From positions 3,410,001 through 3,474,000 of the forward strand of contig NZ_CP084032.1 in the NCBI RefSeq assembly GCF_020181655.1: a DNA stretch of 64,000 bases, given 5' to 3'. Positions 12,189 through 43,843 of this stretch are shown here, piece by piece. The stretch's first letter is position 1; the number at the start of each line of letters is the position of its first letter. Source of the stretch: Pectobacterium colocasium (GTDB lineage Bacteria > Pseudomonadota > Gammaproteobacteria > Enterobacterales > Enterobacteriaceae). The notes beneath the pieces are model-generated. The model was given only the letters and a program-made list of their open reading frames with translations, had not been told where the DNA came from and searched no databases. Made by a program: the position numbers and the translations under genes.

Positions 12189-12390
12189 GGCGTAAAAAGT
12201 CGCGCTGAGGTGTACATGGCCGTCGGATGAGCGGCATGGACGCCGCGAAAGCCTGCGCCGTGCCGGGAGCACGTCGCAGGCGGTCCGAGCAGCGGACATG
12301 AACACCGAAGGAACCGCATAGCGGCGCGAATCACGCCGAAAAGCCAGTGGTCAAGGCGCTGCGGCGATTGAGCGCGCCTTGTCGGGCGTG
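12189..12390 (+). repeat. Structured repeat, copy A (core only, no terminal repeats)
   Basis: This copy shares a core of about 200 bp with the copies at 21534-21831 (inverted) and 32157-32444: GGCGTAAA, GAGCGGCATGGACGCCGCG, ACCGCATAGCGGC, AAAAGCCAG and GTCGGGCGTG occur in the same order. Its stems are GGCGT/ACGCC with TCGCGC/GCGCGA, GGTGT-CATG/CATG-ACACC, GCCTGCG/CGCAGGC with CGTGC/GCACG, and CAAGGCGC/GCGCCTTG. Many differ in sequence from the other copies but keep pairing. It lacks the terminal TTTCGTGCGC repeats and lies between ganL and convergent ganK. No protein-coding frame is supported. Confidence 0.85.
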
Positions 12391-12413
12391 TAACGATGTT
12401 ACAGAGAAATAAG

Positions 12414-12512
12414 ATGCCTAACACGCCCGAAACACTTACACCGCATCAGCATAAAGAAAAACAGTTTCTACAAGAGGCCGTAGACAGCGGAAGCAAAGCC
12501 AGCACCCGCTAA
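12414..12512 (+). CDS. Possible 32-residue peptide of unknown function
   Basis: ATG at 12414 opens a 32-codon frame (MPNTPETLTPHQHKEKQF...) ending TAA at 12510-12512. No strong ribosome site precedes it. A terminator-like hairpin (CAGC-CCC / GGG-GCTG with one mismatch) overlaps its end. It lies just outside repeat copy A, and I do not recognise the peptide. It could be a gene remnant or chance; the polar composition and the terminator are the only support. Confidence 0.25.
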   Translation: MPNTPETLTPHQHKEKQFLQEAVDSGSKASTR

Positions 12513-21486: not shown

Positions 21487-21533
21487 CGGTTTTAAACCTG
21501 CTTGGTCGCTGTTTCTATGCCACTATTGGGGCA

Positions 21534-21831
21534 GTTTCGTGCGCGATAATACCGTCATTTTCATGCTACCTCCTAGCACGCGCCCGACACGGGGCGGCTC
21601 AAACGCCACTCGCCCCGTGACCCCTAGGCTTTTGGCGGAAATTATGCCGCTACGCGGTCCCATCGGTATTCATGCCCGCTAATCGAGCCGCCAGTGACGC
21701 GTTCCAGACGCGGCACTGGCTTTCGCGGCGTCCATGCCGCTCACTCGGCGGTCAAGCCTACCGATGCATAATTTTTTACGCCGGATAACAACAAGGTCAT
21801 CATAAGTCACGACATTTGTGGCGCACGAAAC
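21534..21831 (-). repeat. Structured MITE-like repeat, copy D (full length, inverted)
   Basis: A 298-bp element bounded by perfect 11-bp inverted repeats, GTTTCGTGCGC (21534-21544) and GCGCACGAAAC (21821-21831). Read on the minus strand, the core aligns with copies A and C. Its stems, in plus coordinates, are 21588-21596/21611-21619, 21634-21637 plus 21639-21647/21766-21774 plus 21779-21782, 21661-21668/21759-21766, and 21690-21696/21714-21720 with 21698-21702/21708-21712. They pair perfectly or nearly so although the sequences differ from the other copies. No coding capacity is evident. It sits between the EIIB-like gene and the convergent aldo/keto reductase. Confidence 0.88.
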
Positions 21832-21873
21832 CATTTCCAAGCCTGCATAAAATGTGACGAAGAAAGCCGCTTC

Positions 21874-28700: not shown

Positions 28701-28899
28701 GCTGCTGAGTGCGCTGCCGCTGATGCTGAGCACCGGCGTCGGCGCGGAACTGCGCCAGCCGCTGGGGATCTGTATGGTCGGCGGCCTGATCATGAGCCAA
28801 GTCCTGACGCTGTTTACCACACCGGTGATCTACCTGCTGTTTGACCGTCTGGCGACGCGTTTCCGCCGGACGCCGCGTCAGGAGGAAGAAACCGAGTGA
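25777..28899 (+). CDS. mdtB: RND multidrug efflux pump subunit MdtB
   Basis: A 1040-residue RND transporter with the twelve-helix, two-porter-loop layout. The first membrane helix ([32 protein letters not shown] in part) and the TM4 motif [22 protein letters not shown], which holds the proton-relay Asp residues, are present. MdtB and MdtC assemble as a heterotrimer. ATG overlaps the mdtA stop (TGATG) and its end overlaps mdtC by 4 bases, so translation of all three is coupled. E. coli MdtB has the same length. Confidence 0.97.
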
Positions 28900-31800
28900 A
28901 GTTCTTCGCCCTGTTCATCCACCGCCCCGTCGCCACCCTGCTGCTGACGCTGGCCATCGCGCTCTGTGGCGTATTGGGTTTCCGCCTGTTGCCGGTGTCG
29001 CCGCTGCCGCAGGTGGATTTCCCGGTGATCTCGGTCAGCGCCTCGCTGCCCGGTGCCTCGCCGGAAACCATGGCCTCTGCGGTCGCGACGCCGTTGGAAC
29101 GGGCACTCGGCCGGATCGCGGGCGTCAGCGAAATGACCTCTACCAGTTCGCTCGGCAGCACGCGCGTCATTCTGGTGTTTAACCTCGACAGGGATATCAA
29201 CGGCGCAGCGCGCGATGTGCAGGCGGCCATCAACGCGGCACAGAACCTTCTGCCGTCCGGAATGTCCAGCCGCCCGACCTACCGCAAGGTCAACCCGTCC
29301 GACGCACCCGTCATGATCCTGACGCTGACCTCGGACACCTACAGTCAGGGACAGCTGTACGACTTTGCCTCTACCCAGCTGTCGCAGAAAATTTCGCAGA
29401 TGGAAGGCGTTGGCGATGTCTCCATCGGCGGGAGTTCACTGCCCGCCGTGCGCGTCGCGCTGAATCCAGTGGCGCTGTTTAATCAGGGTATTTCCCTCGA
29501 TGAGGTACGGCAGGCCATCGCGCAGGCGAACGTGCGCCAGCCGCTGGGGAACGTGGAAAACAGCCAGAAAAGCTGGCAGATAAAAACCAACGATGAGCTA
29601 AAAACCGCCGATGCCTACGCGCCGCTGATTATCCACTACAACAACGGGGCCGCCGTCCGCCTGAGCGACGTCGCCACGGTAGAAGATTCAGTCCAGAACT
29701 CACGTAACGCAGGGATGGCGAACTCGAAGCCTGCAATTCTGGTGATGATTCGCCGCGCGCCGGATGCCAACATTATCACCACGGTAGACAATATCCGCGC
29801 CGCGATGCCGGAACTGCGCGCTAGCCTGCCTGCCGAAATACAGCTTGATGTTGCACAGGACCGTTCTCCCACCATCCGCGCCTCACTGGCGGAAGTGGAA
29901 CGATCGCTGGTGATTGCCGTCGCGCTGGTGATTCTGGTCGTCTTCCTGTTCCTGCGTTCCGGCCGTGCGACCGCCATTCCGGCGTTGGCCGTACCGGTAT
30001 CGCTTATCGGCACCTTCGCGGCCATGTACCTGTGCGGTTTTAGTCTGAACAACCTGTCGCTAATGGCGCTTACTATTGCCACCGGTTTCGTGGTGGATGA
30101 CGCCATCGTGGTGCTGGAGAATATTTCCCGCCACATCGAAGCTGGCATGAAGCCGGTACAAGCATCGCTTCAGGGCGTGCGCGAAGTGGGGTTTACCGTC
30201 TTATCAATGAGTCTGTCGCTGGTGGCGGTGTTCATCCCGCTCCTGCTGATGGATGGCTTGCCGGGGCGGTTATTCCGCGAATTCGCCGTCACGCTGTCGG
30301 TGGCGATCATGATTTCGCTGCTGATCTCGCTGACGCTGACGCCGATGCTGTGCGCCCGCCTGCTGCGTGCTGTTCCCAAGCGTAGCCAGCCGCGCACCCG
30401 TGGCTTTAATCGTGTCTTGCTCGCCATGCAGCAAGGCTACGGGCAATCGCTAAAGTGGGTGCTCAACCATGCACGTTGGGTGTTGCTGCTCCTGCTGGGC
30501 ACCATTGCGCTCAACGTCTGGCTGTATATCAGCATCCCGAAGACCTTCTTCCCGGAACAAGATACGGGCCGATTGATGGGCTTCATTCAGGCCGACCAGA
30601 GCATTTCTTTTCAGGCCATGACGGTGAAACTCCAGAACTTCATGACCATTGTCAGCAGCGATCCGGCGGTGGATAACGTGAACGGGTTTACTGGCGGATC
30701 GCGCACTAACAGTGGCTCGATGTTTATCTCACTTAAGCCGCTGTCCGAACGTGATGTATCGGCACAGCAGGTGATCAGCCGCCTGCGCGTCAAGCTGGCA
30801 AAAGAACCCGGTGCCAACCTGTTTTTAATGCCGGTGCAGGATATTCGTATCGGCGGGCGGGAAGCGAACGCTGGGTATCAGTACACGCTGCTGTCTGACG
30901 ATCTAAGCGAGCTGCGCACCTGGGAACCCAAGATTCGTGCTGCTTTCAGCAAACTCCCTGAGCTGGCCGACGTGAACTCCGATCAGCAGGATAAGGGCGC
31001 GGAAATGGCGCTCACTTACGATCGCGATGCGATGGCGCAGCTCGGCATCAGCGTTTCTGCCGCTAACGCGCTGCTCAATAACGCCTTCGGACAGCGCCAG
31101 ATTTCGACCATTTACCAGCCGTTAAACCAATACAAGGTGGTGATGGAAGTGGACGACGCCTACACGCAGGATGTCAGTTCACTGAACAAGATGTTCGTGA
31201 TCAATAACGAAGGTAAGCCTATCCCGCTCTCTTATTTCGCCAGTTGGAAGCCGATCAATGCACCGCTATCGGTGAACCATCAGGGGTTGTCTGCCGCATC
31301 AACAATTTCTTTCAACCTGCCGGAAGGCACCGATCTGTCGAGCGCCACGGCAGCGATAGAAAGAACCATGACGTCGCTGGGCGTGCCGTCAGCAGTGCGC
31401 GGTCAGTTCTCCGGTACCGCACAGGCGTTCCAGCAGTCGCAGTCTTCCCAACTGTTGCTGATTCTGGCGGCGATTATCACCGTGTATATCGTGCTGGGCG
31501 TGCTGTATGAGAGCTATGTGCACCCGCTGACGATTCTGTCGACCCTGCCCTCGGCGGGCGTGGGGGCGCTGCTGGCGCTGGAGTGGTTTGGCGCACCGTT
31601 TAGTCTGGTGGCACTGATTGGTATCATGTTGCTGATTGGGATCGTGAAGAAGAACGCAATCATGATGGTAGATTTTGCGCTGGTGGCACAGCGCAGCGGC
31701 AAGCTGAGCGCACAGGATGCGATTTTCCAGGCCTGTCTGCTGCGTTTCCGCCCGATTATGATGACCACATTAGCCGCGCTGTTTGGGGCTCTGCCGCTGG

Positions 31801-31976
31801 TGCTGACCAGCGGCGACGGTGCAGAACTGCGACAGCCGCTCGGCATCACGATTGTCGGCGGGCTAGTGATGAGCCAAATCCTCACGCTGTATACCACACC
31901 GGTGGTGTATCTGTTTTTCGACAAACTGAGGCATATTCGGCGCAAAGCCCCGGAGAAGGATTTGTCACTGTCGTGA
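28896..31976 (+). CDS. mdtC: RND multidrug efflux pump subunit MdtC
   Basis: A 1026-residue RND transporter paralogous to MdtB, with the same N-terminal helix and TM4 motif ([22 protein letters not shown] in part). It begins at a GTG that overlaps the mdtB TGA (GTGA). In the E. coli MdtB2C heterotrimer, MdtC is thought to bind substrate while MdtB handles protons. In E. coli mdtD follows directly; here the next 547 bases are repeat DNA, so the transcript continues through, or ends within, that stretch. Confidence 0.97.
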
Positions 31977-31987
31977 TAATAATCAAT

Positions 31988-32084
31988 ATGTTATTTCAGG
32001 GGAGGTTTCGTGCGCTTAACTCGCAACGTACTCCCACCTTGGCGTAAATTATGCTGAGGAGAAGATGCTCTCTCGGATGAGCGG
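31988..32084 (+). repeat. Structured repeat, copy B (truncated left part)
   Basis: About 95 bp that repeat the start of copy C 155 bases downstream almost exactly, including GAGGTTTCGTGCGCTTAACT, GGCGTAAATTATGCTGAGG and CTCGGATGAGCGG, and then diverge. It has only the left arm, so none of the long-range stems can form within it. It starts 12 bases after the mdtC stop. Confidence 0.85.
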
Positions 32085-32156
32085 AGCGACAAGATGTGTC
32101 ACTATCATGACTGAACATGAACAACGATAACGATCTAATAACATGCTATTTCTGGG

Positions 32157-32444
32157 GAGGTTTCGTGCGCTTAACTCGCAACGTACTCCCACCTTGGCGT
32201 AAATTATGCTGAGGGAAAAGCATACTCTCGGATAAGCGGCATGGATGCCGCGCAAGCCGATGCCGCGTAGGGAACGCGTCAGCGGCGGTCCGCAAAGAGG
32301 ATGCTTTTCCCGAAGGCACCGCATAGCGGCATAATTTCCCGCCAAAAGCCAGGGTTCCAAGGGCGACGGCAATTGAGCCGCCCTTGGTCGGGCGCGTTCG
32401 GAACGCTACTAGAAAAACGGTGATGCTTGAGCGCACGAAACCTC
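32157..32444 (+). repeat. Structured MITE-like repeat, copy C (full length)
   Basis: A 288-bp element with perfect 15-bp inverted ends, GAGGTTTCGTGCGCT (32157-32171) and AGCGCACGAAACCTC (32430-32444). Internal stems are 32196-32199 plus 32201-32209 with 32328-32336 plus CGCC near 32340; 32213-32223/32301-32311 (11 bp perfect); 32236-32241/32246-32251; 32256-32268/32274-32286 with two mismatches; and 32357-32365/32379-32387 (9 bp perfect). Core and order match copies A and D. It lies between mdtC and mdtD, with no frame resembling a transposase. No clear target-site duplication is seen. Confidence 0.9.
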
Positions 32445-32523: not shown

Positions 32524-33924
32524 ATGACCCAACCAGCTTCCGTCCGCTGGCAACTCTGGATTGTTGCCTTTGGCTTTTTTATGCAGACGCTGGATACCAC
32601 CATCGTGAATACCGCGCTGCCTTCAATGGCCGCGAGTCTGAATGAAAGCCCGCTGCATATGCATTCGGTGATTGTTTCCTATGTGCTGACGGTCGCGGTG
32701 ATGCTGCCTGCCAGCGGCTGGCTGGCGGATCGCATCGGTGTGAAGAACATCTTTTTCACCGCGATTTTGCTGTTTACGCTCGGCTCACTGCTGTGCGCCC
32801 GTTCGGAAACGCTGAATGAACTGCTGGCCTCACGCGTTATTCAGGGCGTCGGCGGCGCAATGATGGTGCCGGTAGGACGGCTGACGGTGATGAAGATCGT
32901 CCCGCGCGATCAGTATATGGCGGCAATGACATTCGTAACGCTACCCGGCCAGATTGGCCCATTGATGGGGCCCGCGCTCGGCGGCTTTCTGGTGGAATAT
33001 GCCAGCTGGCACTGGATTTTCCTTATCAACCTGCCCGTCGGCATTATCGGCGCGCTGGCAACCTGGTTCCTGATGCCCAATTACACTATGCGAACGCAGC
33101 GCTTTGACATCAGCGGCTTCCTCTGGCTTGCGGTTGGCATGGCCACCTTAACACTGGCGCTGGACGGCAACCGCAGTCTGGGCATTCCACCGATTGCCAT
33201 TTTCGCGTTAATCGCTATCGGACTGATCGCCCTGTTAAGCTATTGGCTGCACGCTCGCCACAACAAACGCGCGCTGTTTAATCTGCATCTATTCGATACC
33301 CACACCTTCTCTATCGGCCTGACTGGCGGGCTATTGGCGCGCATCGGCAGCGGTATGCTACCGTTTATGACGCCGCTATTTTTGCAGTTGGGAATGGGGT
33401 TTTCTCCCTTCCACGCCGGGCTGATGATGGTGCCGATGGTATTAGGCAGTATGGGCATGAAGCGGATCGTGGTACAGGTCGTTAATCGGCTCGGTTACCG
33501 ACACGTACTGATTGTCTCCACGCTGCTGCTGGCACTGGTCACGGCACTGTTCGCGCTGGTCGCGCTGATGCAATGGATCTGGATGATCCCGATTGTCTTG
33601 TTCTTCCTTGGCATGGTGAACGCCATTCGTTTTTCCACCATGAATACACTGACGCTGAAAGATCTGCCGGATACGTTGGCCAGCGGCGGCAATAGCCTGC
33701 TGTCGATGACGATGCAGCTGTCCACCAGTCTCGGCGTCAGCATCGCAGGCATTCTGCTGGGCATGTTTTCCCAACCGCATATGGCGGCGGGGAGCGGAGA
33801 AACCCACATGGTGTTTATTTACACCTACCTGAGCATGATCGTGATCATCGCCCTGCCAGTGCTAATTTTTAACCGCGTTCCACCGGACAGCGTCAAGCAG
33901 TCCGTGCTGCCGAGTAAATCGTGA
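32524..33924 (+). CDS. mdtD: MFS transporter MdtD
   Basis: A 466-residue major facilitator of the 14-helix DHA2 group. It begins [36 protein letters not shown], where [10 protein letters not shown] is the family motif D1; the motif-A loop is DRIGVKN. It is the conserved fourth gene of mdtABCD-baeSR, although in E. coli it is not needed for the MdtABC resistance phenotype. Its ATG overlaps a TGA (AAGATGACC), and baeS starts 7 bases after its stop, so mdtD, baeS and baeR remain linked even though repeat DNA separates them from mdtC. Confidence 0.94.
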
Positions 33925-40263: not shown

Positions 40264-40356
40264 GCTGAGAAAACATAGAACGAAAAATAAGCGTAGTGAT
40301 ACTACTAGGAACCACCTCCTTGGCCAGCTCAATCTCCCTTGAGCTGGCTTTTCTTT
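40264..40356 (+). ncRNA. cyaR: CyaR small regulatory RNA
   Basis: A Hfq-dependent sRNA between trhP (yegQ) and yegS, the E. coli location. The diagnostic core AGGAACCACCTCCTT (40307-40321), which base-pairs with ribosome sites of targets such as ompX, luxS and nadE in E. coli, is identical. It is followed by a terminator stem GCCAGCTCAA (40323-40332), loop TCTCCC, TTGAGCTGGC (40339-40348) and TTTTCTTTTT. The loop AATCTCCCTT is also conserved. The 5' end GCTGAGAAAACAT resembles E. coli GCTGAAAAACAT. A class II CRP site lies upstream. Confidence 0.92.
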
Positions 40357-43549: not shown

Positions 43550-43598
43550 AGGTCTCCCAACCGGCGTGGAAGAAGGCGGCAACCGGTGGGCATACCGT

Positions 43599-43678
43599 GA
43601 CTTCCCTACGCTGGCATTATCCAGATCAGGTGGTACGGGTATTTCTCAGCCTTCACAAAGAAGGGCACCCCGAGTCAT
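43599..43678 (-). promoter_or_regulatory. TPP riboswitch of thiMD
   Basis: Read on the minus strand: CGGGGTGCCC, then CTGAGA and ATACCC, then CCTGATCTGG and ATAATGCCAGCGTAGGGAAG, the full THI-box core in order. It lies 50 bases upstream of thiM. The intervening leader has ACCGG and CCGGT elements that could form the switching helix near the GGGAG ribosome site. Confidence 0.96.
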
Positions 43679-43843
43679 GTACTACGCTTTGCAGCATAAG
43701 TAAGTGGGTAACGTAAAGCAAGCGCTCCCCCGCTTCTCTTGCCCACCCGACACCCAATGAAAAACCACAGGCACGTTGTGACATAGAGAAAAACGCCATA
43801 ACCCTTTAGACTGGTTAATCAAACCCATACTGAGGAGATTGTG

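Follow-up and report, generated by a model that had tools for sequence, protein, structure and literature searches.

The DNA analysed here (the window) is a stretch of 64,000 nucleotides (nt) from Pectobacterium colocasium (contig NZ_CP084032.1, positions 3,410,001 to 3,474,000). It carries three copies, named A, C and D, of a dispersed repeat that folds into a multi-stem structure with GGA in two hairpin loops (Table 1). Copy C lies between two open reading frames (ORFs) which we take to be mdtC and mdtD. The stems quoted for the three copies in a first-pass annotation of the window are all present at their places, A and C being read on the plus strand and D on the minus strand, although a further, truncated copy (B) had been missed. 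The range that it gave for D (21534-21831) covers the core plus both GTTTCGTGCGC ends. The outer closing stem is likewise present, with one G-A mismatch in copy A.

Table 1. Positions of the repeat copies, their parts and other RNA features in the window.
Feature	Position	Strand	Details
Copy D core	21534-21782	-	domain 1, 21782-21634; 3' domain, 21633-21534
D hairpin 1 (GCGGC/GCCGC)	21725-21740	-	hexaloop AUGGAC (ANGGAN); GGA, 21733-21731
D hairpin 2 (GCCAGTG.../...CACTGGC)	21690-21720	-	loop GGA, 21705-21703
D outer closing stem	21640-21773	-	AATTATGC (21773-21766) paired with GCATAATT (21647-21640)
D 3' domain	21537-21619	-	hairpin CACGGGGCG/CGCCCCGTG and terminal stem TCGGGCGC/GCGCACGA
D left outer end	21487-21544	+	degenerate terminal sequence, then GTTTCGTGCGC (21534-21544)
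D right outer end	21821-21873	-	second GTTTCGTGCGC-type end, 21831-21821 on minus; putative remnant of a lost inverted partner
Copy A core	12189-12433	+	GGA loops, 12238-12240 and 12266-12268
Copy C core	32196-32441	+	GGA loops, 32243-32245 and 32271-32273; ORFs 28896-31976 and 32524-33924 on either side
Truncated copy B	about 31996-32100	+	5' end and start of domain 1, then a duplicated stretch, then copy C
CyaR small RNA (sRNA)	40270-40354	+	above Rfam cut-off
Thiamine pyrophosphate (TPP) riboswitch	43586-43682	-	above Rfam cut-off

A blastn search with D gave 43 matches in the 4.91-Mb genome. The genome-wide collection with a covariance model that the first-pass annotation had recommended was performed with model R1, built from 35 copies. 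It detected 39 copies at E<=0.01, the weakest at 90.2 bits, with 150 of 2134 first-look candidates scored; the E-values of R1 and of a broader model, R2, rest on a short calibration. With 39 dispersed copies of about 245 nt plus ends, the repeat has the small size and high copy number expected of a miniature inverted-repeat transposable element. All 25 genomes of the genus that were examined, the present one included, contained matches. Of the 67 stretches that matched in an exact pattern scan, 58 belonged to Pectobacterium and nine to Brenneria, Dickeya, Samsonia and Candidatus Symbiopectobacterium. Within the order, R1 matched 30 of 394 genomes, which belong to 13 of the 114 genera (its own among them), and within the class R2 matched 25 of 369 genomes (23 of 272 genera). 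Both counts are lower bounds because stricter filters were used and only 7 or 8 candidates were scored per genome. No near DNA relative of D was found among plasmids, nor of A among Escherichia coli genomes, and the titles and abstract beginnings of the open-licence papers listed gave no description of this repeat family.

Covariation was counted on 35 of the 39 own-genome copies, after exclusion of four whose hairpin 2 carries an insert. The consensus has 48 pairs, and in 24 of them both sides have changed with pairing kept. Pairing was found in 98.6% of 1679 cells against 88.5% in shuffled alignments, and both sides had changed in 195 cells against 56.2. The covariation score was 0.344 against 0.145, a value reached by none of 500 shuffles, while the weakest measure, the number of further pair types, was 49 against 44.4 and was reached by 8 of 500 shuffles. 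When the partners were slid by 1-3 columns, at most 46.6% of cells paired and the covariation score did not exceed 0.085. This slid control and the spread of the changes over the helices weigh more than the shuffles, since related sequences can beat shuffles without structure. The fifth helix and five of the seven terminal-stem pairs never vary in this set and are therefore uninformative on covariation. The first-pass annotation had proposed several covarying stems and a maintained fold, and had named aligned copies devoid of covarying pairs as the outcome that would contradict it; the compensated half of the pairs and the almost complete pairing bear the proposal out.

A mutual-information scan was also made on 165 distinct copies of the genus and of genera close to it; short copies and those with the insert were excluded. 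Fifteen of the 20 top column pairs fell on the structure, which was derived from this same alignment. One column pair is occupied by AU in 93 copies, GC in 30, CG in 24 and UA in 18. The scan also backs a helix P2 (columns 35-38 with 117-120) that is omitted from the 35-copy consensus. In the 3' domain, columns 169, 174 and 198 are associated, U occurring with A-U and G with G-C almost without exception, which is possibly a base triple.

The wobble pairs indicate which strand is folded. On the strand read in copies A and C (the A/C strand), the 35 own copies contain 53 G·U against 3 A·C; the counts become 20 and 3 once a column pair that is almost always U-G is removed, and 44 broader sequences contain 52 against 19. 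This bias towards the A/C strand indicates that selection acts on one strand, RNA being the simplest form, and the asymmetry speaks against a cruciform, in which both strands fold. The "folded RNA or DNA form" of the first-pass annotation is thus narrowed to one strand. Among the relatives the stem sequences diverge while the fold stays: pairing holds in 91.8% of cells over the 28 class-level matches, compared with 59.6% after shuffling, although this alignment was produced by fitting to the model and is biased in its favour. Taken together, these results demonstrate that a single-strand fold is under selection.

Hairpin 1 contains A(N)GGA in all 165 copies and hairpin 2 contains GGA in 164, and conservation reaches 99-100% at GGA and at the A of hairpin 1, while the other loop positions are at 54-79%. 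The exception for hairpin 2 is a minus-strand copy (L104) in which this hairpin is reversed in an otherwise normal unit, as if a palindromic arm had flipped. GGA is kept in both loops in 33 of 36 matches outside the genus group and in 25 of 28 in the class-level set; some of these relatives read ACAGGGAUGU or ACAUGGAUGU. In the 35 own copies, hairpin 1 appears as C-ANGGAN-G (26 copies), U-ANGGAN-A (1) or a C-AGGAC-G pentaloop (8), and hairpin 2 has GGA in all 35. A binding site for the regulator CsrA or its homologue RsmA is expected to show GGA in a hairpin loop, ideally as ANGGAN; both loops have the GGA and hairpin 1 the ANGGAN hexaloop in 27 of 35 copies. The CsrA consensus obtained by systematic evolution of ligands by exponential enrichment is RUACARGGAUGU, and RsmE is described as binding an ANGGAN hexaloop (PMC7652899). 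Lying 28 nt apart, the two loops could, judging from their spacing, occupy the two faces of a single dimer. In some copies (L034-L037, L071, L073, L079, L090, L106) the hairpin 2 loop is enlarged by an optional insert, about 75 nt long and containing several small hairpins, and an Rfam scan of four insert-bearing loci gave no match for the insert itself.

The absence of a named family, as the first-pass annotation had it, holds at the Rfam gathering threshold, which no match over the window copies reached and which none of the own-genome copies seen passes; below that threshold the repeat is a divergent relative of TwoAYGGAY (RF01731). This model matches D at 33.3 bits, under its 43-bit cut-off. 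Among the own-genome matches listed, the four best all belong to this repeat family (29.1-35.3 bits, the next being 22.8), and the list is incomplete, since D is missing from it. The best own-genome score seen is thus 35.3 bits. In distant relatives, an RF01731 match (E<=1) lies on or beside the R1 match in 11 of 20 loci, and two of the 20 pass the cut-off (L126 at 45.9 and L127 at 48.1). On the strength of these sub-threshold matches and passing relatives, we read the repeats as homologous to TwoAYGGAY without being members by the cut-off. They share with this RNA, which belongs to clan CL00106, a three-way junction, two GGA-loop hairpins and common AAG and CGG linkers. They differ from it by an added 3' domain, by a hairpin 2 loop that is not AYGGAY and by their 39 dispersed copies at gene 3' ends. 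CsrB, which is present in the genome, is placed in the same clan. TwoAYGGAY is known from the human gut, Gammaproteobacteria and Clostridiales (PMC2864571), and CsrA binding by it was put forward in a motif study (PMC4333381); the parts of the open-licence literature that were consulted gave no test of this link.

The GGA-bearing hairpin loops also recall CsrB/RsmB, RsmY and RsmZ, the sRNAs that titrate CsrA (PMC7652899, PMC4383904). Each of these sRNAs comes from one gene and contains many GGA sites, whereas the repeat has two sites per unit, many units and a conserved junction. By description, the repeats can be likened to the Correia repeat enclosed elements of Neisseria, which are small and dispersed, with inversion reported, but lie mostly upstream of genes (PMC10969869); none of the 37 classed copies lies between divergent genes. 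They can similarly be likened to the intergenic, dispersed and in some cases palindromic ERIC, YPAL and RU repeats of enterobacteria, none of which was named in the Rfam scans of the copies. One copy has matches to the sRNA Ysr224 (RF02770) beside it (L020:1226-1332). The flank that holds this match recurs at many places in each of four genomes (G010, G011, G019, G021), so that Ysr224 behaves as another dispersed repeat family.

Genes were called mechanically as ORFs of 110 aa or longer, and on this basis the genomic setting could be classed for 37 of the 39 own copies. Twenty copies lie between convergent genes, 17 between tandem genes (8 sense and 9 antisense to them) and none between divergent genes. 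The core is within 140 bp of the 3' end of a neighbouring gene in 36 of 37 cases, the exception being a member of a close pair, and four cores are also overlapped by an ORF call. This placement, like the GGA loops and the differing orientations described below, goes beyond what the first-pass annotation had seen.

Thirteen of the 39 sites, chosen and not random, were compared with their orthologues in four sister species. Of the 52 site-genomes, 46 could be compared, and the six others had flanks that were far apart or unlisted. The core had the same orientation in 27, was inverted in 10 (at 6 of the 13 sites) and was lacking in nine, two of which are uninformative (L003, one flank only); at these chosen sites, 10 of 37 occupied site-genomes are therefore inverted. 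At one site (L012, where the own copy is 5'-truncated), a sister species has collinear flanks but a reversed unit, placed to within a few bases of the own position. In the interval between the presumed mdtC and mdtD ORFs, cores or fragments occur in all 24 genomes, on the plus strand only in 5, on the minus strand only in 9 and on both in 10. At the D site, both flanks were found in 16 of 24 genomes, with D's orientation in 3 (own included) and the opposite one in 13.

Orthologous cores are 93.3% identical in the same orientation (26 cases) and 88.6% when inverted (10), with flanks at 93% (36 of 37 occupied site-genomes) and an identity to other own copies of about 83%. In 19 of 26 same-orientation cases, but in only 4 of 10 inverted ones, none of the 13 own cores is closer than the orthologue. 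At the L002 site in three species, the cores are only 82-83% identical while the flanks are at 93.5-95.9%. Cores are thus replaced between copies, and for that reason an opposite orientation may come from replacement and not from a simple flip. The element is absent at L010 in one species and at L015 in three. The third of the latter has, by eye, a Ysr224-like repeat in its place, and part of the hairpin 2 insert is also seen inside that repeat. Two apparent empty sites were rejected: a 5' remnant is kept at L007 (two species) and an end at L012 (one species), which makes them deletions. Sequences resembling terminator hairpins were noted by eye at two sites in species without the element.

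A second copy was sought within about 1.5 kb at 46 loci around distant matches (27 order-level and 19 class-level); 28 loci had none, 14 had a 5'-to-5' pair, 4 a same-strand pair and none a 3'-to-3' pair. Pairs of the 5'-to-5' type thus occur in 14 of the 18 loci with a nearby second copy, 13 of them by covariance model and one by RF01731; one 3'-to-3' pair is found in the class-level match list (G762). Copies C and D, with a GTTTCGTGCGC end on both sides, may be such pairs that have lost most of one arm. Two distant inverted pairs enclose an ORF (L266:1677-2390 and L267:1698-2651), one without Pfam or PADLOC match and the other with SNase and SH3 domains, and two were too few to retain a cargo reading. 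An own-genome pair 5.7 kb apart encloses ordinary-looking ORFs.

The ends are degenerate. Of 108 right flanks, 27 have an TAAGAGACAG-like end where shuffles would give 3.6, and of 109 left flanks, 22 have a CTGTCTCTTA-like end where they would give 6.0. Both ends are legible in 6 of 149 copies. Among these six testable copies, L051 agrees at 7 of 9 flanking bases (shuffling predicts 0.18 such copies) and the others at 0 to 4 of 9; no convincing target-site duplication was seen in them, nor a clean empty site among the orthologous sites compared. The Tn5 dimer domain, the only mover domain sought, was found in 0 of 25 genomes, its positive control being silent too. Some left ends resemble what we take to be the Tn5 mosaic end. 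This likeness is not relied on, as a 17-base mosaic-end pattern, with tolerance for a single mismatch, was matched at 3 places over 12 genomes.

These features suggest a dispersed RNA element with two GGA loops, located at gene 3' tails, binding RsmA and spread as a mobile-like repeat, a reading to which we give a probability of roughly 55%. Each repeat would yield a structured RNA of about 245 nt, mainly in the 3' tail of the messenger RNA (mRNA) of a neighbouring gene, presumably by read-through from the upstream gene. Its core is a three-way junction, and the two GGA hairpin loops, like those of TwoAYGGAY, would together grip a single dimer of RsmA, the homologue of CsrA. Such units would have spread as a non-autonomous mobile-like repeat that settles at gene 3' ends, exchanges its core and can stand in either orientation at one site, the change being made by a flip in place or by replacement. 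As a net effect, the copies together might buffer RsmA as a sponge, or bound RsmA might shape the end of the host transcript.

Several observations weigh against this reading. No own hairpin 2 has an AYGGAY loop (0 of 35, compared with 19 of 35 for hairpin 1). Its loop is NNGGAA or similar without the ACA of the CsrA consensus, which disfavours an equal affinity of RsmA for both loops. Bases elsewhere in the junctions are just as invariant, and GGA may therefore be kept for the sake of the fold instead; highly stable stems may disfavour CsrA binding (PMC7652899). No match was recognised by eye between the gene tails beside own copies and 15 published P. atrosepticum sRNAs from 3' untranslated regions. 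A cis role in the mRNA is weakened by the antisense position of 9 of the 17 tandem copies and by the free orientation between species, and for the same reasons a sponge in trans or a selfish spread fits while a fixed cis role is disfavoured.

The opposite orientations and core replacement at orthologous sites, the 5'-to-5' pairs of distant genera and the excess of degenerate shared ends would also be expected if an unseen recombinase or transposase acted on the folded sense strand, as single-stranded DNA, to move and invert the unit, any RNA having no role. G·T is better tolerated than A·C in single-stranded DNA as well, so that the wobble bias suits this explanation too. It appears somewhat unlikely, however, as A(N)GGA loops resembling the CsrA consensus are not among its predictions, both ends are so rarely legible (with L051 alone showing similar flanking bases) and no transposase was found by the single-domain search, its control silent. 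The 3'-end structure might, on the other hand, merely stabilise or terminate the transcripts of its neighbours without RsmA, in line with its closeness to gene 3' ends, its absence between divergent genes and the terminator-like hairpins at the two sites mentioned. We consider this quite unlikely, because the orientation is free and a plain stabiliser needs neither invariant loop GGAs nor complex junctions.

A structure without selection would require that complementarity arose by copying within hairpins (quasi-palindrome correction) and by gene conversion between copies. Core replacement between loci and the reversed hairpin 2 of L104 are of the kind that such processes would leave. But excess covariation is also shown by the outer stem and P2, which enclose other helices and have arms about 80-120 nt from each other, loops and junctions are invariant, the wobble is strand-asymmetric and the fold is retained in other families whose stem sequences are unrelated, all of which makes this explanation highly improbable.

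The preferred reading, an RsmA-binding element at gene 3' tails, can be extended to a genome-wide invertible RsmA network. In it, 39 two-site modules on transcript 3' ends would be switched between sense and antisense by inversion and would jointly set the free RsmA pool, the 5'-to-5' pair being the ancestral transposing unit; we regard this extension as unlikely. New here are the 3'-end placement, the inverted orientation at orthologous sites, often with another core, and the 5'-to-5' pairs in distant Gammaproteobacteria. TwoAYGGAY is an orphan RNA, and the RsmA/rsmB circuit is known to act in Pectobacterium virulence (PMC4710047). A genus that combines this circuit with dozens of copies per genome makes the CsrA link directly testable. 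If true, this link would join dispersed bacterial repeats and CsrA titration, and would mean that junk-looking repeats carry a selected RNA function and could rewire a global regulator.
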